Source: Frigoribacterium sp. PhB160
GTDB lineage: Bacteria; Actinomycetota; Actinomycetes; Actinomycetales; Microbacteriaceae
Length of the DNA stretch: 64,000 nucleotides
Assembly (NCBI RefSeq): GCF_003751785.1
Contig: NZ_RKIE01000002.1
Span: 124,001 to 188,000 of the forward strand
Direction of reading: 5' to 3'
Under the pieces are notes generated by a model. It searched no databases, was not told the DNA's origin, and was given only the letters and a program-made list of their open reading frames with translations. The translations under genes were made by a program, and so were the position numbers. Below are positions 23,000-59,445 of the stretch, piece by piece. Every line of letters starts with the position of its first letter. The first letter of the stretch is position 1.

Positions 23000-23039
23000 G
23001 GAGGCGGTGGGCGCGTCCCGGGACGCGCCCACCGCCTCC
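23000..23039 (+). terminator. Perfect 40-nt palindrome between receptor and permease genes
   Basis: Bases 23000-23019 are the exact reverse complement of 23020-23039, beginning GGAGGCGGTGGGCGCG. The transcript can fold a hairpin of up to about 18 bp with a minimal loop, 6 bases after the receptor stop. It probably stops most transcripts or protects the receptor message, so that receptor is made in excess over permeases. Confidence 0.75.
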
Positions 23040-42485: not shown

Positions 42486-43577
42486 GTGGCGGACAGGGTC
42501 ACCATCGTCGAGGTCGCCGCACGGGCGGGCGTCGCGATCAGCTCGGTGTCGAGCGCGCTCAACGACCGGCCCGGCGTCTCCGACCGCACCCGCGCCCGCA
42601 TCAAGCAGGCCGCCGACGACCTCGGCTTCGTGCCGAGCGTGCGGGGGCGCTCGCTCAGCGCCAAGCGCGCCTTCGCCGTCGGGCTCGTCGTGCACCGCGA
42701 CCCGTTCGTGCTCGAGTCCGACCCGTTCTTCGGCAGCTTCATCGGCGGGCTCGAGTCGGTGCTCGACCCGCGCGGCTACGCGCTCATCCTGCAGATGGGG
42801 ACGGCCGCCGACGAGACCCTCGACCGCTACCGACGGCTCGCGGCGGGGCGTCGGGTCGACGGCGTCGTCCTCAACGAGCTCGCGGTCGACGACCCGCGCG
42901 TGCCGCTCGTGCAGCAGCTCGGGCTGCCCGCCGTGGGCGTCAACCCGGCGCCGGGCTTCCCGCTGCCGGCCGTGCGGCAGGACGTCTCGGCGGGCGTCCG
43001 CGAGCTCGTCGAGCACCTCGTCTCGCTCGGCCACCGGCGGTTCGCCCACGTGGCCGGGCCGTCGCGGTTCGTCCACGCCGTGCACCGCGTGGAGGCCTGG
43101 CGGGAGGCGCTGATCGCCTCCGACCGCGACCCCGGCCTCGTCGTCGAGGCCGACTTCACCTACGAGGGCGGGCGCCGGGCCGCGGTCGACCTGCTGGGCC
43201 GCTCCGACCGGCCGACCGCCGTCTTCTGCGCGAACGACCTCGCCGCCATCGGCTTCATGACCGAGGCCGACCGCCTCGGGGTGCGCGTGCCGGAGGAGAT
43301 CAGCGTCGCCGGGTTCGACGGCATCGAGCTCGGCGGGTACGTGCGTCCGGCGCTGACCACGATGACGACCTCCCCTCGGCTGCTCGGGGCGGAGGCGGCG
43401 CGGCTGCTGCTCGCCGCGGTCGAGGGCGGCGGGGCCGCGGCCGGCGGTGCGAGCGTGGGCGACGGGGCCGAGGTAGGGGCCGGGGTCGATGTCGTCGCGG
43501 CCACGGGCGGCGGCGGGACCGAGATCGAGCCGGCGCGGCTGCTGGTCCGCGCCTCCACGGGAGCCGTGCCCGGCTGA
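42486..43577 (+). CDS. LacI family transcriptional regulator (locus 3)
   Basis: A 363-residue LacI/GalR repressor: helix-turn-helix and hinge at residues 3-60 (VTIVEVAARAGVAISSVSSA), then a periplasmic-binding-protein-like sugar domain. A Gly/Ala-rich insert (about residues 312-345) lies near the C-terminus. It probably binds the perfect 18-bp palindrome at 43716-43733 and controls the mannoside operon downstream. The GTG at 42486 has GAGGAGG 7 bases upstream, part of a GGAGGCGCG copy. Confidence 0.93.
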   Translation: MADRVTIVEVAARAGVAISSVSSALNDRPGVSDRTRARIKQAADDLGFVPSVRGRSLSAKRAFAVGLVVHRDPFVLESDPFFGSFIGGLESVLDPRGYALILQMGTAADETLDRYRRLAAGRRVDGVVLNELAVDDPRVPLVQQLGLPAVGVNPAPGFPLPAVRQDVSAGVRELVEHLVSLGHRRFAHVAGPSRFVHAVHRVEAWREALIASDRDPGLVVEADFTYEGGRRAAVDLLGRSDRPTAVFCANDLAAIGFMTEADRLGVRVPEEISVAGFDGIELGGYVRPALTTMTTSPRLLGAEAARLLLAAVEGGGAAAGGASVGDGAEVGAGVDVVAATGGGGTEIEPARLLVRASTGAVPG

Positions 43578-43596: not shown

Positions 43597-43656
43597 GAAC
43601 CCCGTTCCGTTCGGAGAACCACGAAGCTTCGTGGTTCTGTGAACGGAACGGGGTTC
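43597..43656. repeat. 60-bp palindromic element, copy 1
   Basis: Outer arms GAACCCCGTTCCGTTC (43597-43612) and its reverse complement (43641-43656); inner perfect arms AGAACCACGAAG and CTTCGTGGTTCT (43615-43638). It lies 20 bases after the lacI stop, where it can end that transcript. About 90% identical to copy 2 at 51686, with all outer-arm bases conserved. Confidence 0.85.
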
Positions 43657-43680
43657 TCCGCGGTGTGGGCCCGGCGGGCC

Positions 43681-43709
43681 TTCCGCTCCGGGGGAGGGCG
43701 TGCTAGCTT
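43681..43709 (+). promoter_or_regulatory. Promoter of glycan locus 3
   Basis: TTCCGC (43681-43686), a 17-base spacer and TAGCTT (43704-43709) with a preceding TGC (extended -10). The operator starts 7 bases downstream, over the likely transcription start. Confidence 0.55.
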
Positions 43710-43715
43710 CCTGGT

Positions 43716-43733
43716 TACCGAAACGTTTCGGTA
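43716..43733. promoter_or_regulatory. LacI-type operator, perfect 18-bp palindrome
   Basis: TACCGAAACGTTTCGGTA is a perfect palindrome with the central CG typical of LacI-family operators, placed across the start of transcription of the locus 3 operon. The regulator gene is adjacent. Confidence 0.88.
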
Positions 43734-43769
43734 GATCACGACAGCCGCACGACGACGAAGTTGGTGCCC

Positions 43770-45011
43770 ATGGACCCCGCGACCACGACTGCCGCGCACG
43801 CCCTCGCGAGCGCCGCCGCCTCGAGCACCCCGACCGGAACCGCCGCGAGCACCCCGAGCGCGTCCGCCGCGTCGCCCGCCCTCGTCCCGCACCTCGTGCG
43901 GCTGACGCGCGAGCGGCTCCGGCAGGTGCTCGCCGACGCGCTCGCCCACGACGACCCGCTGACGAGCGCCCTCGCGCAGCTCGACTTCTCCGCGGCCGAG
44001 GCCTACGGCGCCGACCGTCCCGACTGGGCCGTCGGGCCCTTCGCCCCCGACCCGGCGCTGACCTTCACCCTCGACGGCCAGTGGGCCGACCCCGACGACG
44101 TCGGCTGGACCAGCTCGTCGCTCTACAACCCGTCGATGATCGAGCACGACGGCACCCTGCACCTCTTCTACCGGGCCTCGCCCCGCAAGGAGAGCCTCGG
44201 CAGCCGCATCGGCCACGCGACGCGCGACCTCTCCGACCCCGACGCCGCCTGGGTCGACGACCCGGCGAACCCCGTGGTGCGCCCGCTCGACGACCTCGAG
44301 CTGCTCGGCGTCGAGGACCCCAAGGTCTACCGCGCCGACGGTCGCTTCTGGCTCTTCTGGAACGGCATCTGGCCGATCACCGAGGAGGCGCGGGCCGCGT
44401 TCCCGAGCACCGGGTACCCCGTCGAGGCGGTCGGCTGCGACATGATGCTCGCCGTCAGCGACGACCTCGTGACGTGGGAGCGCCTCGGGCCGATCGCCCC
44501 GCCCGAGCAGACCCGGCTGTGGGCCAAGGGCGCCGTCGTGCCGCGCGACGAGCACGGCGAGGCCGTCCGGATCGGCGGCGAGTACCTCATGTTCGTCAGC
44601 GAGGGCTTCGACGGCGTGCTGCACGTCGGCCGGTCGGACGACATGCGTCGTTGGACCTTCGAGCCCACGCCGTACCTCGACCTGTCGAGCGTCGGCGGGC
44701 ACCTGCACGAGGTCGCCGCCGCGATCGTGACCGGCGACGGGCACCTCGTGCTCGACGTCTTCCACGACGACGCCGACGGCCGCTTCGCCGCCAGCCAGGC
44801 GCTCTACGACCTCGACCGCCCGACCGACCAGCTCGCCCTCACGCCCGGCGGGTCGCTCAGCTGGGGCGGGCTCGGCCGGGTGGACGGCCGCTGGACCTTC
44901 GCGCAGGGCTGGGACGCGCCTCCCGGGCACCGCGACCTCTACGTCTACCGCGAGGCACCCGACGCGACCGCACCCGACGCGACCGCACCCGCCGCCGTCC
45001 CCACGACCTGA
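43770..45011 (+). CDS. GH130-like glycosidase / mannoside phosphorylase
   Basis: A 413-residue five-bladed beta-propeller enzyme. YNPSMIEHDGTLHLFYRAS and the GVEDPKV motif (Glu182, Asp183) match GH130, whose Asp is the proton donor in phosphorolysis of beta-mannosides; GH43-like hydrolysis is the alternative. A Ser/Thr/Ala-rich tail of about 30 residues precedes the fold, without a signal peptide. The ATG at 43770 is preferred over a TTG three codons earlier. It is the first gene after the operator. Confidence 0.75.
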   Translation: MDPATTTAAHALASAAASSTPTGTAASTPSASAASPALVPHLVRLTRERLRQVLADALAHDDPLTSALAQLDFSAAEAYGADRPDWAVGPFAPDPALTFTLDGQWADPDDVGWTSSSLYNPSMIEHDGTLHLFYRASPRKESLGSRIGHATRDLSDPDAAWVDDPANPVVRPLDDLELLGVEDPKVYRADGRFWLFWNGIWPITEEARAAFPSTGYPVEAVGCDMMLAVSDDLVTWERLGPIAPPEQTRLWAKGAVVPRDEHGEAVRIGGEYLMFVSEGFDGVLHVGRSDDMRRWTFEPTPYLDLSSVGGHLHEVAAAIVTGDGHLVLDVFHDDADGRFAASQALYDLDRPTDQLALTPGGSLSWGGLGRVDGRWTFAQGWDAPPGHRDLYVYREAPDATAPDATAPAAVPTT

Positions 45012-45051
45012 CCCGCACCGCAGCGCACCACCCGAACCCAAGGAGAACATC

Positions 45052-46338
45052 GTGCAACGTCGCACAGCACTCATCGGAGCCACCGTCCTGCTCGCCGGCC
45101 TCGGCCTCACCGCCTGTTCCGGCGGAGGAGGCGGCGGCGGCGACGCCCTCACCGCGAAGGGCCCCATCACGATCTGGTACTCGAACAACGAGTCCGAGGT
45201 CGCCTGGGGCAAGGCCACGGTCGAGGCATGGAACGCCGACCACCCCGACGAGCAGGTCAAGGGCCAGGAGATCCCGGCCGGCAAGTCGAGCGAAGAGGTC
45301 ATCGGGGCCGCCATCACGGCCGGCAACGCGCCCTGCCTCGTCTACAACACGGCGCCGAGCGCGGTGGGCCAGTTCCAGAAGCAGGGCGGCCTCGTCGACC
45401 TGTCGAGCTTCAGCGACGGGGCGAAGTACATCGAGGACCGCAGCGGAGACCTCGCCGAGCAGTACCAGGACGCCGACGGCAAGTACTACCAGCTGCCCTG
45501 GAAGTCGAACCCCGTCATGATCTTCTACAACAAGGACCTCTTCACGAAGGCCGGCCTCGACGCCGAGTCGCCCGCCCTGTCGACCTACGACGACTTCCTC
45601 GCGACGAGCAAGACGCTCGTCGACGCAGGCGTCTCCGACTACGCGATCCACCCGGCCCCGACGAGCGAGTTCTTCCAGTCGCAGTTCGACTTCATGCCGC
45701 TCTACGCGGCCGAGACGGGCGGCACCGGCCTCGTCGAGGACGGCAAGGCCACCTTCGCCGACGGCGCCGGCGAGGACGTCGCGACCTTCTGGCGCGACCT
45801 CTACGACCAGGGCCTGGCCGGTCAGGAGCAGTACACCGGAGACAGCTTCGCCGACGGCGAGGCCGCCATGTCGATCGTCGGCCCGTGGGCCGTCAACGTC
45901 TACAAGGACGTGAACTGGGGCGCCGTGCCGGTGCCGACCAAGGACGGCACGAGCCCGGAGGACACCTACACGTTCAGCGACGCGAAGAACGTCGGCATGT
46001 ACACGGCCTGCGAGAACCAGGGCACCGCGTGGGACTTCCTGAAGTACTCGACCAGCGAGGACTCCGACCGGGCCCTGCTCGAGACGACCGGCCAGATGCC
46101 GATCCGCACCGACCTCGCCACGACCTACGCCGACTACTTCGACGCCAACCCGTCGTACGCGCTCTTCGGCGACCAGGCGGCCCGCACCATCGAGGTGCCG
46201 TCCGGCCCGAACACCGTGGCCGAGCTGCAGGCGTTCCGCGACGCGTGGTCGAGCAGCGTGATCTTCGGCAAGGGCGACGTCGACTCGTCGCTGAAGGACG
46301 CCGCGTCGAAGATCGACGAGCTCGCGGCCCAGGACTGA
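45052..46338 (+). CDS. Sugar ABC transporter binding lipoprotein (locus 3)
   Basis: A 428-residue family-1 solute-binding lipoprotein: MQRRTALIGATVLLAGLGL, lipobox LTAC, then a Gly-rich linker. The ligand is probably a beta-mannoside or manno-oligosaccharide, given the GH130 genes on both sides. The GTG at 45052 has AAGGAG 7 bases upstream. The next gene starts three bases after the stop. Confidence 0.92.
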   Translation: MQRRTALIGATVLLAGLGLTACSGGGGGGGDALTAKGPITIWYSNNESEVAWGKATVEAWNADHPDEQVKGQEIPAGKSSEEVIGAAITAGNAPCLVYNTAPSAVGQFQKQGGLVDLSSFSDGAKYIEDRSGDLAEQYQDADGKYYQLPWKSNPVMIFYNKDLFTKAGLDAESPALSTYDDFLATSKTLVDAGVSDYAIHPAPTSEFFQSQFDFMPLYAAETGGTGLVEDGKATFADGAGEDVATFWRDLYDQGLAGQEQYTGDSFADGEAAMSIVGPWAVNVYKDVNWGAVPVPTKDGTSPEDTYTFSDAKNVGMYTACENQGTAWDFLKYSTSEDSDRALLETTGQMPIRTDLATTYADYFDANPSYALFGDQAARTIEVPSGPNTVAELQAFRDAWSSSVIFGKGDVDSSLKDAASKIDELAAQD

Positions 46339-46341
46339 CCC

Positions 46342-47355
46342 GTGTCCACCCTCAGCGCGGGGCCTGCCACCCCGGCCGCCGGCGGGGGACCCGAAGAGGC
46401 GCACCGCGCCTCCTCGGGTCGCCCCCGCCCCGGCACGGCCGGCTCGCCCGGCCCCGGCCGTCAGCCCCGCGGACGCCGCGGCCTGCTCGGCAAGAACCCC
46501 CTCGGCCTGCTGTTCAGCGCGCCGTACCTCGTGTTCGTGCTCGCGGTCTTCGCGTACCCGCTCGTCTACGCGGTGTACATCGCCTTCCACGACTACTTCT
46601 TCACGGCGCCCGGCGCGGTCGTCGACCGGCCGTTCGTCGGCCTGGACAACTTCGTCACGGCGTTCACCGACCCGGCCGTGATCCGGTCGTTCGGCAACGT
46701 CGGCGTGTTCCTCGTGATCAACGTGCCGCTCACCGTCGTGCTGAGCATGGTGCTCGCGACGGCGCTCGACAAGGTCGCGCACTTCCGCGGGTTCCTCCGC
46801 GTGGCGTTCTACGTGCCCTACCTCACGGCGAGCGTCGCGGTCGTCGCCGTGTGGCTCTTCCTCTTCAACGGCAGCGGCCTCGTCAACCAGGTGCTCGGCC
46901 CGCTGGCGCCGACGCCGTCGTGGCTGATCAACTCGGCGTGGGCGATGCCCTCGATCGCGCTGTTCGTCACGTGGAAGCAGCTCGGCTTCTACATCCTGCT
47001 GTACCTCGCGGCGCTGCAGAACGTGCCGAAAGAGCTGTACGAGGCGGCGTCGAGCGACGGCGCCGGCCCGATCCGGTCGTTCTTCGCCGTGACCGTGCCG
47101 GGGGTTCGCCCGGCGACCGTGCTGGTGCTGCTCGTCTCGACCGTCACCGGCGCGAACCTCTTCACCGAGCCGTACCTGCTCACCGGCGGAGGGGGGCCGA
47201 ACGGCGCCTCCACGTCGCCGGTGCTGCTCATGTACCAGAAGGGCATCGAGCAGGGGAACCCCGACCAGGCCGCCGCCATCGGCGTCGTGCTCGTGATCCT
47301 CGTGCTGGTCATCGCCCTGCTGCAGAACCGGTTCGCCGGCGGGAAGGAGTCCTGA
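46342..47355 (+). CDS. Sugar ABC transporter permease, MalF type (locus 3)
   Basis: A 337-residue permease: a Gly/Pro/Arg-rich cytoplasmic tail of about 50 residues, six helices and the coupling loop YEAASSDGAGPIRSFF. The GTG at 46342 lies three bases after the receptor stop. It is paired with the following MalG-type gene; no ATPase is encoded nearby. Confidence 0.92.
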   Translation: MSTLSAGPATPAAGGGPEEAHRASSGRPRPGTAGSPGPGRQPRGRRGLLGKNPLGLLFSAPYLVFVLAVFAYPLVYAVYIAFHDYFFTAPGAVVDRPFVGLDNFVTAFTDPAVIRSFGNVGVFLVINVPLTVVLSMVLATALDKVAHFRGFLRVAFYVPYLTASVAVVAVWLFLFNGSGLVNQVLGPLAPTPSWLINSAWAMPSIALFVTWKQLGFYILLYLAALQNVPKELYEAASSDGAGPIRSFFAVTVPGVRPATVLVLLVSTVTGANLFTEPYLLTGGGGPNGASTSPVLLMYQKGIEQGNPDQAAAIGVVLVILVLVIALLQNRFAGGKES

Positions 47356-47356
47356 G

Positions 47357-48190
47357 ATGTCGAAGGCCCAGACCACGCTGCGAGGCGTCGTGCTCGCGAT
47401 CGGGGCGCTCGCGTTCCTGTTCCCCTTCTACTACATGGTCATCGGGTCGCTGCAGACGCGGCCCGACCCGACCGTGGCGGGCGCCTTCCCGCACCCGTCG
47501 AACATCACGGTCGAGAACTACGCCGCGATCGACAGCCGCATCGGGCTGCTGACCGGCCTCGCGAACTCGGGCATCTTCACCGTGGGCGTGCTCGCCTGCA
47601 CGCTCGTCTTCGGGGTGCTCGTCGGCTACGCGCTGGCCGTGCTGCAGTGGCGCGGCCGCGGGGTCACGTTCGCGCTGGCGCTGCTCGTGCAGGTCGTGCC
47701 GTTCCAGCTGCTGATCATCCCGCTGTACGTGCTCATCGCGCGCAACTACGGGCTGAGCGACAACTACCTCGGCATGATCCTGCCGTTCGCGATCAACTCG
47801 ACGGCGGTGATCGTCTTCCGGCAGTACTTCCTGCAGCTGCCCAAGGAGCTCTTCGAGGCGGCGCGCATCGACGGCACCGGCGAGTTCCGGCTGCTGTGGG
47901 ACATCGCCCTCCCGCTCGTCCGCCCCGCGCTCGTCACGGCCCTGCTGCTGACCTTCATCGGGCCGTGGAACGAGTTCCTCTGGCCGTTCCTCATCACGAA
48001 AGAGGCGTCGATGCAGCCGCTCGCCGTGTCGCTCGCCAACTACATCAGCAACGTGGCGGCGACCGCGGCGAACCCGTTCGGCGCGACCCTCGCGGGCGCC
48101 GTCGTGCTGGCCGCGCCGGTCGTGCTGCTGTTCATCGTGTTCCAGCGGTACTTCATCTCGACCGACGTCGGCTCGAGCGTGAAGGGCTGA
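47357..48190 (+). CDS. Sugar ABC transporter permease, MalG type (locus 3)
   Basis: A 277-residue permease with six helices and the coupling loop FEAARIDGTGEFRLLW. It starts one base after the preceding stop. It is followed by a 178-base spacer with two similar hairpins before the next GH130 gene. Confidence 0.92.
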   Translation: MSKAQTTLRGVVLAIGALAFLFPFYYMVIGSLQTRPDPTVAGAFPHPSNITVENYAAIDSRIGLLTGLANSGIFTVGVLACTLVFGVLVGYALAVLQWRGRGVTFALALLVQVVPFQLLIIPLYVLIARNYGLSDNYLGMILPFAINSTAVIVFRQYFLQLPKELFEAARIDGTGEFRLLWDIALPLVRPALVTALLLTFIGPWNEFLWPFLITKEASMQPLAVSLANYISNVAATAANPFGATLAGAVVLAAPVVLLFIVFQRYFISTDVGSSVKG

Positions 48191-48205
48191 GCCGCCCCCG
48201 GACCC

Positions 48206-48246
48206 GGGGAGGCGCGGGGTGCGCCCGTCGCGCACCGCGTCTCCCG
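48206..48246 (+). other. Intercistronic hairpin 1 (locus 3)
   Basis: GGGGAGGCGCGGGGTGCGC folds on GCGCACCGCGTCTCCC with one bulge and a G-U pair around a 5-base loop. It sits in the permease-GH130 spacer and is a likely processing, attenuation or partial termination signal. Confidence 0.5.
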
Positions 48247-48287
48247 AGGGCCCCCACCCGACCGGGTCGACGACGACCCCCTCCGCA

Positions 48288-48324
48288 GGAGGCGCGGTGC
48301 CTGCCCCCCTCGCACCGCGTCTCC
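48288..48324 (+). other. Intercistronic hairpin 2 (locus 3)
   Basis: GGAGGCGCGGTGC (48288-48300) pairs with GCACCGCGTCTCC (48312-48324), 13 bp with one G-U pair and an 11-base loop. Its arms are nearly the same as hairpin 1, as if the unit were duplicated. Confidence 0.55.
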
Positions 48325-48368
48325 GCCGCACCTGCCCCTGCTCCCGCACCCCTCCCGAGAGGCTCGCC

Positions 48369-49469
48369 ATGACCCACCTGACCGAGACGGACGAGGTCGC
48401 CGACGCGACCGACGCCCCCGGCTTCCCCTACCGCCTGACCCGCCTCGGCGTGGTCATGACGCCCGACCCCGACGAGCCGCTCGAGGCCGAGGGCGTGCTG
48501 AACCCCGGATCCGGCCGCGGCCCGGACGGCGAGCTCTACCTGCTGCCGCGGCTCGTCGCCGCCGGCAACGTCTCGCGGGTCGGCCTCGCCCGCGTCGTCG
48601 TCGACTACGGCGTGCCGGTCGGCGTCGAGCGGCAGGGCGTCGTGCTCGCCCCCGACCGCGGCTGGGAGCGCGGCGCCACGCACTCCGGCGTCGAGGACCC
48701 GCGCGTCACGTGGGTCGGCGAGCTCGGCCTGCACGTCATGACGTACGTCGCGTACGGCCCGCTCGGACCGCGGACGGCCGTCGCCGTGAGCGACGACCTC
48801 CGCGACTGGCGCCGGCTCGGCCCCGTCACGTTCGACTACGTCGACGAGCTCGACACCGACCTCGGCCTCTTCCACAACAAGGACACGACCTTCTTCCCGG
48901 AGGCCGTCACCGCTCCCGACGGCGTGCGGAGCTTCGCCGTGCTGCACCGGCCGATGTGGCACATCGGCGCCACGGTGCCGGGGGAGGGCAGCCCGCTGCC
49001 GGCCGGCGTGACCGACGGCCGCCACTCGATCTGGATCAGCTACGTGCCGGTCGCCGCGGTCGCCGCCGACCCGCGGGCCCTCGCCCGTTGGGGGCAGCAC
49101 CGCCCGGTCGCCGGGCCGGCCTTCCCGTTCGAGGAGCTCAAGATCGGCGGCGGCCCGCCCCCGCGCCGCGTGCCGGAGGGCTGGCTGCTGCTGCACCACG
49201 GTGTGACCGGCGTCATCGAGGACGCCTTCGCCCAGCAGCAGAACGTCAACTACGCGGCGGGCGGCATGATCCTCGACGCCGACGACCCGTCGCGCGTCGT
49301 CACCCGCTCGGCCGTGCCGCTGCTCGAGGCCGAGACCGACGACGAGCGCGACGGCATCGTGCCGAACGTCGTCTTCCCGACGGCGATCGAGGAGGTCGAC
49401 GGGGTGCCCTTCGTCTTCTACGGCATGGCCGACTCCAAGATCGGCGTCGCCCGGCTCGACCGCGCCTGA
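48369..49469 (+). CDS. GH130 family beta-mannoside phosphorylase or mannosidase
   Basis: A 366-residue GH130 protein. LNPGSGRGPDGELYLLPRL, the GVEDPRV motif (Glu109, Asp110), HNKDTTFFPE and HRPMWHIG are typical of the family. Members split beta-1,4- or beta-1,2-linked mannosides with phosphate, including the Man-GlcNAc core of N-glycans, to give mannose-1-phosphate; some are hydrolases. No signal peptide, so cytoplasmic. The ATG at 48369 follows GAGAGG by 7 bases; the open frame upstream covers the two hairpins. Confidence 0.85.
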   Translation: MTHLTETDEVADATDAPGFPYRLTRLGVVMTPDPDEPLEAEGVLNPGSGRGPDGELYLLPRLVAAGNVSRVGLARVVVDYGVPVGVERQGVVLAPDRGWERGATHSGVEDPRVTWVGELGLHVMTYVAYGPLGPRTAVAVSDDLRDWRRLGPVTFDYVDELDTDLGLFHNKDTTFFPEAVTAPDGVRSFAVLHRPMWHIGATVPGEGSPLPAGVTDGRHSIWISYVPVAAVAADPRALARWGQHRPVAGPAFPFEELKIGGGPPPRRVPEGWLLLHHGVTGVIEDAFAQQQNVNYAAGGMILDADDPSRVVTRSAVPLLEAETDDERDGIVPNVVFPTAIEEVDGVPFVFYGMADSKIGVARLDRA

Positions 49470-49549
49470 CCCGGTCCGTCCACGGCCTCGGCCGCCCGCA
49501 CGACCATCCCGCTCCACCCGACCGACGAGACAGAAGGAGGCGGTCGACG

Positions 49550-51625
49550 ATGACCGCACGCACCGCACGATGGGCCGGGCTCGCCCTGGCCGCCACGACC
49601 GCGATCGCGCTGGGGGTGACGGGAGCCCTGCCGGCGTCCGCCGCGCCTCCGTCGGCCCCGGCCCGGCCCGGGACGGCCGCGCCGGTCGCCGCCGCCGCGG
49701 CACCGCTGACCAACCTCGCGCACCTCGACTTCCTGCTCGACGAGACGACGCCCGCGGCCGAGGAGGGCCACACGTCGTACCGCCTCGACAGCGAGCCGAC
49801 GCTGACCCTGCCGTGGACCTACGCCGACGCCCGCGACGGCGGCACCTTCGCCCGCGTGGGCGGCGGGCCGCTCGACCCGGCCACCGGGTACTGGGGCCAG
49901 GGCGCCTACAACTCCGACGACGTCTCGCGCGCCGCAGTGGTCTACCTGCGCGACTGGCAGCAGACCGGGTCGCCGGAGAGCCGCACGAAGGCCTACGAGC
50001 TGCTGCGCTCGACGGCGTACTTCCAGACGACGACCGGGCCCGCCGCGGGCAACGTCGTGCTCTGGATGCAGCCCGACGGCACGTTCAACCGCAGCCCGGT
50101 GCCGGTGGAGCTGCCCGATCCGTCCGACAGCGGCAACAGCTACTGGCTGGCCCGCAGCATCTGGGCCTTCGGCGAGGGCTACGCGGCCTTCCGCGACGAC
50201 GACCCGGAGTTCGCGGCCTTCCTGCAGCAGCGCCTCCAGCTCGGGGTCACGGCGCTCCAGCGCGAGTCGCTCGCGAAGTACGGCCAGTACGAGGTCGCCG
50301 ACGGGGCGACGGTGCCCGCGTGGCTCGTCGTCGACGTCGACGGCGCCGACGCCTCGGCCGAGGCCGTGCTCGGGCTGACCTCGTACGTCGAGGCCGCCCC
50401 CGGCGACGCCGCCGCGCGCACCGCGGCGACCCAGCTCGCCGAGGGCATCGCCCGCATGTCGTCGGGCGACCCGCAGACCTGGCCCTACGGCGCCGTGCTG
50501 CCCTGGACGCACTCGCGCTCGATGTGGCACTCGTGGTCGTCGCAGATGCCGGTCGCCCTGGCACGCGCGTCGACGGTGCTCGGGCGGGCGGACCTCCTGA
50601 GGCCCGCCGTGACCGACACCACCTCGTTCACGACCACGCTGCTGACGGCCAGCGGACCCGACAACGCCTGGTACCCGACGCCGATCGACCAGACGCAGAT
50701 CGCCTACGGGGCCGACTCGCGACTCCAGTCCGCCCTCGCGGTGGCCGAGGCGTCGGGCGGGGCGGGCCTCCGCCAGGTGGCGGCGGTCGCCGGCAGCTGG
50801 TACTTCGGCACGAACCGCTCGGGGCGGGCCGTCTACGACCGCGCCACCGGCGTGACGTACGACGGGGTGCAGGCCGACGGCTCGGTGAACCGCAACTCGG
50901 GCGCCGAGAGCACCATCCACGGCCTGCTCTCGATGATCGCCCTCGACGGCGCCCCCGACGTGTCGGCGCTCGCGCAGGCGTCGACCACGGTCGCCTCGCG
51001 CGACGGGCTCACGACCGTCGAGGCCGAGGGCGCCACGGCGACCACGGGCACCGTCGTCACGCCCACCTCGGCGTGGACCGGCGAGGCGCAGTACAGCGGC
51101 GGCTCGGCGCTGACGCTGCAGCCCGGGCAGAGCGCCTCGATCACCGTGCCGGCGGGCTCCGGCCTCCGCCACGTGGAGCCCGTGCTGCTCGGCGCCGAAG
51201 GCCTCGCCTCGACCTCGACGTGGAAGGCCGGACGGCTGCCGCTCGGCACGCTGACGACGAAGGTCGGCGCTCAGGGGGTGACCGCCGCCTCCGGCGCGCT
51301 GCTGCCCCAGACCCTCTCGGTGCCGGTCGGGCCGGGCGCCACCGCCGTGACCGTCACGGCCCGCGGGTCGCAGCCGGTCACGATCGACGCGCTGATCGTC
51401 CGGCCGCTCGTGCAGCGCCTGGCGCTGACCGGGGCCGGCGGACGCTCGACCGAGCTCGTCTCGTCGACGTCCCGCCTGCCGCTGCCGACCACGGTCGGCG
51501 CCCGCGGGGTGCGCTCGACGGTCGCGAGCTACGACGCGAAGGGGCAGCTCGTCTCGCAGAAGACGGTGTCGGGCCGGTCGCTCGTGGCGGTGCGGGCCGG
51601 CGGGTTCGTGGTGGTCACCCGCTAG
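49550..51625 (+). CDS. Large secreted alpha/alpha-toroid protein with CBM-like C-terminus
   Basis: A 691-residue exported protein. A Sec signal (GLALAATTAIALGVTGALPA, cut after SAA near residue 33) leads to a helical region (about 55-470) with alternating helices and conserved Trp and Tyr (YWLARSIWAFGEGY, NRNSGAESTIHGLL), which resembles six-hairpin glycosidase folds. Then come a carbohydrate-binding-like beta region starting VEAEG (about 488-630) and a final beta-rich tail. I cannot place it in a GH family. Its position at the end of the mannoside operon suggests it cuts glycans outside the cell. The ATG at 49550 has AAGGAGG upstream. Copy 2 of the 60-bp palindrome follows. Confidence 0.75.
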   Translation: MTARTARWAGLALAATTAIALGVTGALPASAAPPSAPARPGTAAPVAAAAAPLTNLAHLDFLLDETTPAAEEGHTSYRLDSEPTLTLPWTYADARDGGTFARVGGGPLDPATGYWGQGAYNSDDVSRAAVVYLRDWQQTGSPESRTKAYELLRSTAYFQTTTGPAAGNVVLWMQPDGTFNRSPVPVELPDPSDSGNSYWLARSIWAFGEGYAAFRDDDPEFAAFLQQRLQLGVTALQRESLAKYGQYEVADGATVPAWLVVDVDGADASAEAVLGLTSYVEAAPGDAAARTAATQLAEGIARMSSGDPQTWPYGAVLPWTHSRSMWHSWSSQMPVALARASTVLGRADLLRPAVTDTTSFTTTLLTASGPDNAWYPTPIDQTQIAYGADSRLQSALAVAEASGGAGLRQVAAVAGSWYFGTNRSGRAVYDRATGVTYDGVQADGSVNRNSGAESTIHGLLSMIALDGAPDVSALAQASTTVASRDGLTTVEAEGATATTGTVVTPTSAWTGEAQYSGGSALTLQPGQSASITVPAGSGLRHVEPVLLGAEGLASTSTWKAGRLPLGTLTTKVGAQGVTAASGALLPQTLSVPVGPGATAVTVTARGSQPVTIDALIVRPLVQRLALTGAGGRSTELVSSTSRLPLPTTVGARGVRSTVASYDAKGQLVSQKTVSGRSLVAVRAGGFVVVTR

Positions 51626-51685
51626 GGCGCGCCGCTCAGCGCCCTCGCCGTCCCGGCCCGGCCCGCGCCCCGCCTCGTGCGCGAA

Positions 51686-51745
51686 GAACCCCGTTCCGTT
51701 CGAAGAACCACGTTGCTTCGTGGTTCATCGAACGGAACGGGGTTC
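51686..51745. repeat. 60-bp palindromic element, copy 2
   Basis: Outer arms GAACCCCGTTCCGTTC (51686-51701) and reverse complement (51730-51745), inner arms GAACCACG and CGTGGTTC. It lies between the convergent toroid-protein and reductase genes, where it could end transcription from both sides. Same length as copy 1 and about 90% identical; the differences are in the inner loop and the joint between arms. Confidence 0.85.
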
Positions 51746-51798: not shown

Positions 51799-52476
51799 CT
51801 ACGCCTCGTCGGCGTGCGGCGCGGGCGCCTCGGTCGCCGTGGCGCGGGTCGCCTTCGCGAGGTTGGCGACGAGCTCCGACCGGGTCTGCGACACGACGTA
51901 GGCGGGCTGGTCGCGCTCGACGCGCCAGCTCTCGCTCAGCGGGCCGACGTTGACGGTGTCGAAGCCGAGCTCGTCGTAGAGGCGCTGGACGTACTCGGCG
52001 GCCTCCTCGAAGTCGCTCGACGTGGCGAGGGCGCGACGGCCCTCCTCGCCGGCGGGCTTGCCGTCGGTCGTGATGTCCTTCGCCATGATGTGGTTGAAGC
52101 CCTTGGCGACCTTGCTCTCGGGCAGGTGCCGCTGCAGCATGCCCGAGACGGTGTCGAGGCCGTTGTCGAGCGCCGCGATGTGGCCGTCGCGCTCGAAGTA
52201 GTAGTTGTTCGTGTCGACGACGATCTTGCCGGCGAGGGGCTCGACGGGCACCTGCTCGTAGTTCTTGAGCGGCACGGTGACGACGACGACCTCGCCGGCG
52301 CTCGCCGCCTCGTCCGCGGTCGCTGCACGGGCCTTGTCGCCGAGGTCGGCGACGAGGTCGCCGAGCGTCTCGGGTCCGCGCGAGTTGCTGATCACGACGT
52401 CGTGTCCCTGGGCGATGACCGCCCGGGCGACCTGGCTGCCGATGTTGCCTGCTCCGATGATGCCGAATGTAGTCAT
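51799..52476 (-). CDS. NAD(P)-binding reductase, F420-dependent NADP oxidoreductase-like
   Basis: A 225-residue protein with the N-terminal FGIIGAGNIGSQVARAV dinucleotide-binding loop, NSRGPETLGDL for the NADP phosphate, and VDTNNYYFERDG. It belongs to the COG2085 group with F420H2:NADP+ oxidoreductase, but could use another partner. The ATG at 52476 is preferred because the fold starts there and a TTGGCT box lies 6 bases before it; the longer open frame runs over the HAD promoter. Confidence 0.82.
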   Translation of the reverse strand: MTTFGIIGAGNIGSQVARAVIAQGHDVVISNSRGPETLGDLVADLGDKARAATADEAASAGEVVVVTVPLKNYEQVPVEPLAGKIVVDTNNYYFERDGHIAALDNGLDTVSGMLQRHLPESKVAKGFNHIMAKDITTDGKPAGEEGRRALATSSDFEEAAEYVQRLYDELGFDTVNVGPLSESWRVERDQPAYVVSQTRSELVANLAKATRATATEAPAPHADEA

Positions 52477-59367: not shown

Positions 59368-59445
59368 GTCGTGTCGCGTCACGTTCCGTGCGTCGCGTCG
59401 CGTCTTCTCGTGACGCCTCGCCCAGGACGTGACGCCGTGCGACCC
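59368..59445. repeat. GCGTCACG-type palindromic repeat, copy B
   Basis: It starts GTCGTGTCGCGTCACGTTC, has CGTGACGC twice and ends ACGTGACGCCGTGCGACCC. The ends match copy C at 60065 closely; the middle differs. It lies between the beta-lactamase and MOSC genes. Confidence 0.65.

Follow-up and report, generated by a model that had tools for sequence, protein, structure and literature searches.

Related systems

The closest described counterpart of the repeats analysed here is the REPIN-RAYT system, in which dispersed and mostly extragenic palindromes form several repeat-gene groups per genome, a distinct repeat group lies beside each distinct partner gene, and the partner gene shows no sign of moving itself (PMC3116915). 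The Frigoribacterium palindromes present the same arrangement beside another gene family. They differ from the REPIN-RAYT system in repeat structure, each palindrome measuring 60 bp and having a pair of boxes in each arm, spaced at a 19-bp step. They differ also in the identity of the partner: where the RAYT is a Y1/HUH transposase, here it is a winged-helix protein of AbiEi-like type that bears a PD-(D/E)XK-like motif.

PD-(D/E)XK proteins of the Vsr/DUF559 type carry motifs in an E...D...ExDGxxK-like order, as do the Frigoribacterium proteins; the latter, however, fail to match Pfam DUF559 at a threshold as loose as E = 10, and their putative assignment to a nuclease-like class is drawn from the motif. 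Their N-terminal domain is that of AbiEi, from the AbiE type IV toxin-antitoxin system; AbiEi itself binds two inverted repeats, and a single monomer has been proposed to occupy each 23-bp half-site (PMC3985639). Unlike the AbiE antitoxin (PMC3985639), the Frigoribacterium proteins add the nuclease-like motif at their C-terminus and, in contrast to the promoter-only repeats of AbiE, the palindromes associated with them are found to either side of the gene as well as scattered through the genome. The literature searched, whose coverage excludes most subscription journals, contained no paper linking AbiEi, DUF559 or COG5340 with dispersed palindromes. The pairing of palindromes with AbiEi-like genes points to an unreported repeat-and-enzyme partnership that resembles, and is unrelated to, REPIN-RAYT.

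Palindromes in the analysed window

The window is a 64,000-nt stretch of the genome of Frigoribacterium sp. PhB160 (G000). The first-pass annotation had reported in it a pair of palindromes bracketing a LacI-controlled glycan operon. The analysis found both to be near-perfect palindromes and bore out their coordinates (43597-43656 and 51686-51745), their length of 60 bp each and their identity of ~90%, as well as the invariance of their 16-base outer arms (GAACCCCGTTCCGTTC) and the confinement of their differences to the joint (positions 17-19 and 42-44) or the loop. These are the strongest two short-gap palindromes in the window, with MFE values of -51.5 (z = -10.8) and -49.8 kcal/mol (z = -11.7), respectively, relative to 200 dinucleotide shuffles; a shuffled window contained zero comparable short-gap palindromes. 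The window contains four exact instances of the 16-base arm, all of them inside these two elements. Palindrome 1, which like the others discussed here has no assigned strand, is composed of a box (GAACCCCG), an 11-nt spacer, a second box (GAACCACG) and a 6-nt loop, followed by the mirror image.

The reported flanking of the operon also held. Palindrome 1 occupies the gap between the lacI stop and the operon promoter, starting 20 nt past the stop codon of the LacI-family regulator gene (42486-43577, plus strand) and lying ~113 nt 5' of the first operon gene. The bracketed sugar-use operon (43770-51625, plus strand) encodes a GH130 protein, a solute-binding protein, two permeases, a further GH130 protein and a 691-aa protein (49550-51625) with zero Pfam matches. 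Palindrome 2, which belongs to the same family, starts 61 nt past this last gene, in the convergent gap 3' of it, and beyond it lies a convergent F420-dependent oxidoreductase-like gene (51799-52476, minus strand).

A third 60-bp palindrome, more decayed and weaker and absent from the first-pass annotation, was identified at 59376-59435, 12 nt downstream of a stop codon. It is of the GCGTCACG type, and its box repeat reaches 8/8 on its minus strand. A palindrome resembling this type is also located 3' of an AbiEi-like gene elsewhere in the same genome (G000:C3:71394-72383; L110:4352).

A dispersed population with a two-box architecture

A covariance model of the palindrome family, built from 29 copies, identified ~24 copies in the window's genome (E < 0.01), nearly all of them of 60 bp. 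Searching the genome for the 16-base arm likewise returned arm pairs at many sites; the arms listed were all paired at 60-bp spacing save for one decayed half-copy, and among them no autonomous parent element, longer but with the same terminal arms, was seen. The copies follow unrelated genes, the outcome that the first-pass annotation had itself named as counting against its operon-linked reading. Matches to the model were obtained in all 16 Frigoribacterium genomes searched, with per-genome counts that are rough, 150 candidates having been scored in each. In two genomes with single-contig chromosomes, the copies concentrate in the oriC-proximal half (26/35, or 74%, in G015 and 34/43, or 79%, in G006). 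In a survey of the bacterial family, five of the 78 sampled genera, Frigoribacterium among them, presented matches at E < 1e-7. Some of the matches outside the genus (e.g. L153 and L157) keep the geometry with different letters, and no AbiEi-like gene was found within 1.5 kb of palindromes in other genera. Rfam returned just weak matches to microRNA models, below the gathering score.

Across 18 sequence-dissimilar families, defined as sharing <63% identity with one another, the palindromes present a common architecture: an 8-mer box, 11 nt, a similar 8-mer box, a 6-nt loop and the mirror image. The box repeat at a 19-bp step matches at 5.6/8 positions across these families, compared with 1.7-2.9 at other steps, and in gene-flanking copies it reaches 6.1/8, other steps giving overall roughly 1.6-3. 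Base-pair covariation (50 double-changed cells versus 17.4 in shuffles) supports pairing along the whole stem, a signal that could also come from palindrome perfecting during replication.

Palindromes of 62-74 bp with repeated GAGGGCGGGT boxes were observed at several other loci (L044:12259, L136:425, L138:1396, L142:8396, L143:1472 and L118:1554), and no partner gene was found for this family.

Association with AbiEi-like genes

In the window's genome, outside the window, two identical palindromes of the window-palindrome family bracket a gene encoding a 346-aa AbiEi-like protein (G000:C1:190472-191512; L042:7473-8513). Profile searches identified two to ten AbiEi-like relatives of this gene in every Frigoribacterium genome. 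The N-terminal part of the protein is AbiEi-like (winged-helix), all 41 aligned proteins matching the PADLOC AbiEi profile and 17 of them Pfam AbiEi_4. The C-terminal part contains a conserved, PD-(D/E)XK-like E...D...ExDGxxK motif, in which E217, D249, E260, D262 and K266 show little or no variation among the aligned proteins; this putatively nuclease-like domain, so designated from its motif, has no Pfam or PDB match. On reading the L042 locus by eye, no obvious AbiEii gene was seen beside the AbiEi-like gene and the flanking genes looked unrelated. The AbiEi-like nuclease-like protein was not found in the plasmids and viral contigs searched.

AbiEi-like genes typically have members of their own palindrome family as neighbours on one side or both. 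Of the 69 such genes whose neighbourhoods were scanned, 65 adjoin a palindrome of 50 bp or more, as do 46 of 172 control genes, and palindromes are present on both sides of 33/69 and 1/172, respectively (p about 3e-20). When the box repeat is required, 63 of the 69 AbiEi-like genes are flanked, 32 of them on both sides, against 34 and 0 of the 172 controls. When the copies on either side of a single gene are compared, a median of 49/60 positions match, whereas copies from different genes match at 26/60 (p 8e-19). Protein and palindrome divergence are correlated (rho 0.44, permutation p <= 5e-4), with a contribution from shared descent; because a gene is commonly inherited along with the palindromes beside it, neither the 69 genes nor the points of this correlation are independent observations.

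The association extends to copies away from these genes. Of 108 dispersed palindromes, taken from loci partly selected for resemblance to the GAACC family, single-linkage clustering assigned 97 to families that bracket an AbiEi-like gene as well, the largest cluster being broad and merging several subtypes. Strict one-gene-one-family matching within genomes gave a mixed outcome: dispersed copies belong to the type of an own-genome gene in 12/13 cases in G003 and 8/9 in G011, and in 1/10 in G015, while 12 of the 19 dispersed copies in G000 are nearest to the G011 type. In several genomes, GAACC-type copies are present but no gene clearly matches them. Overall, there is a family-specific association of two-box palindromes with AbiEi-like nuclease-like genes.

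Interpretation and alternative explanations

We consider it probable that the window palindromes are unexceptional representatives of a 60-bp two-box palindrome population that is dispersed in the genome and partnered with AbiEi-like PD-(D/E)XK-like proteins. As inverted-repeat binding is established for AbiEi (PMC3985639), it is natural to infer that the AbiEi-like protein would bind the palindrome arms, with approximately one subunit per 27-bp arm. The bound protein might then cut or nick the DNA at the palindrome, and repair or copying after the cut would spread and homogenise the palindromes, as proposed for RAYT proteins and their REPINs. Palindromes would persist at 3' ends, where they do no harm or serve as termination or 3'-end hairpins. 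Two genomes with ~98% identity (G005 and G006) have in common each of the ten sites at which they were compared, one copy carrying an internal deletion; since no empty site was seen, mobility is a property that we infer.

More tentatively, and with somewhat less than even confidence, AbiEi-like winged-helix nucleases may constitute an independent, non-RAYT class of repeat-and-enzyme dyads, in which every gene sustains and propagates a 60-bp two-box family of its own, and which have diversified to at least a dozen specificities in a single genus. If true, the REPIN-RAYT lifestyle, with palindromes dispersed and a single dedicated enzyme passed on vertically, has also evolved around an unrelated protein, and the palindromes offer a clue to what AbiEi-like nuclease-like genes do. 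The many diverged repeat-gene pairs in one genus make repeat-protein specificity directly testable.

A regulon without mobility, in which the AbiEi-like protein is a sequence-specific binder and its 3'-end sites, tracking the specificity of the protein, serve as roadblock terminators or topological barriers, appears rather unlikely. It would accommodate the inverted-repeat binding and autoregulation of AbiEi proteins (PMC3985639), the retention of slots between species even as their sequences change and the very slow turnover seen between G005 and G006, but not the inter-box spacer, which is also palindromic, with covariation, and would be needless in a two-box double-stranded DNA site. The conservation of the nuclease-like motif and the identical twin palindromes flanking the AbiEi-like gene in G000 also argue against it.

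The placement of the palindromes bears on a further alternative, whereby they are plain strong transcription terminators, as the first-pass annotation had suggested, and the link to AbiEi-like genes is due to chance. Using gene calls from a simple codon-usage finder written for this analysis, 120 palindromes (54-100 bp) were assigned to 60 convergent, 44 tandem and 8 divergent gaps, with 8 inside called genes, against a background, counted over gaps of 60 bp or longer, of 99 convergent, 249 tandem and 113 divergent. Palindromes at tandem sites lie a median of 42 nt downstream of the preceding stop codon and 120 nt short of the following start. This 3'-end placement fits a terminator role, which may hold as a secondary function but gives an incomplete account. 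The palindromes are not followed by a U-tract, however, T being enriched at the first two 3' positions only, and the two bracketing the operon gave no terminator-like match. G.U and A.C mismatches are about equally frequent (20 versus 21 at tandem sites, 30 versus 34 at convergent sites). With neither a G.U bias nor a U-tract, the data give no sign that base pairing is maintained in the RNA, and RNA-level selection on the stem was not retained as an explanation. Plain terminators would also leave unexplained the fixed 60-bp two-box geometry and the family-specific bracketing of one gene family, and we regard this reading as improbable.

Other hairpins were observed in the genus. A separate type of ~37-47 bp with GGAGGCGCGGTG arms, located mostly in convergent gaps (L042, L047, L053, L106, L112, L118, L140 and others), is possibly the usual terminator of the genus. 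In the window, a perfect 40-bp palindrome (GGAGGCGGTGGGCGCGTCCC/GGGACGCGCCCACCGCCTCC) directly 3' of a gene, at 23000-23039, is likely an ordinary terminator.

Canonical REPINs moved by RAYT would account for dispersed palindromes and a flanked partner gene, but the Y1_Tnp (PF01797) tyrosine transposase, detected in five known control genomes, gave no match in the 16 Frigoribacterium genomes, which speaks against RAYT as the partner and makes this explanation highly improbable.

Comparison of the operon locus

The operon and its flanks are common to related Frigoribacterium species, with other palindromes in the same slots, and operon-gene homologs are present in other genera with no such palindromes in their 20-kb loci. 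Because the slots hold differing palindrome families, the operon did not arrive as a unit between palindromes, and the proposal that they are the ends of a mobile cassette, suggested by the two similar flanking copies and put forward in the first-pass annotation as a unit that moved or was duplicated, is ruled out by the shared slots and can be virtually dismissed. That annotation's description of the elements as REP- or MITE-like pointed in the right direction as regards REP-like dispersal, and failed as regards cassette ends. In nearly all the Frigoribacterium loci examined, a ~60-bp palindrome fills the slot that separates lacI from the operon, but from differing sequence families: G011 and G015 carry two different subtypes there, and the slot of F. 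endophyticum (L090) has no palindrome.
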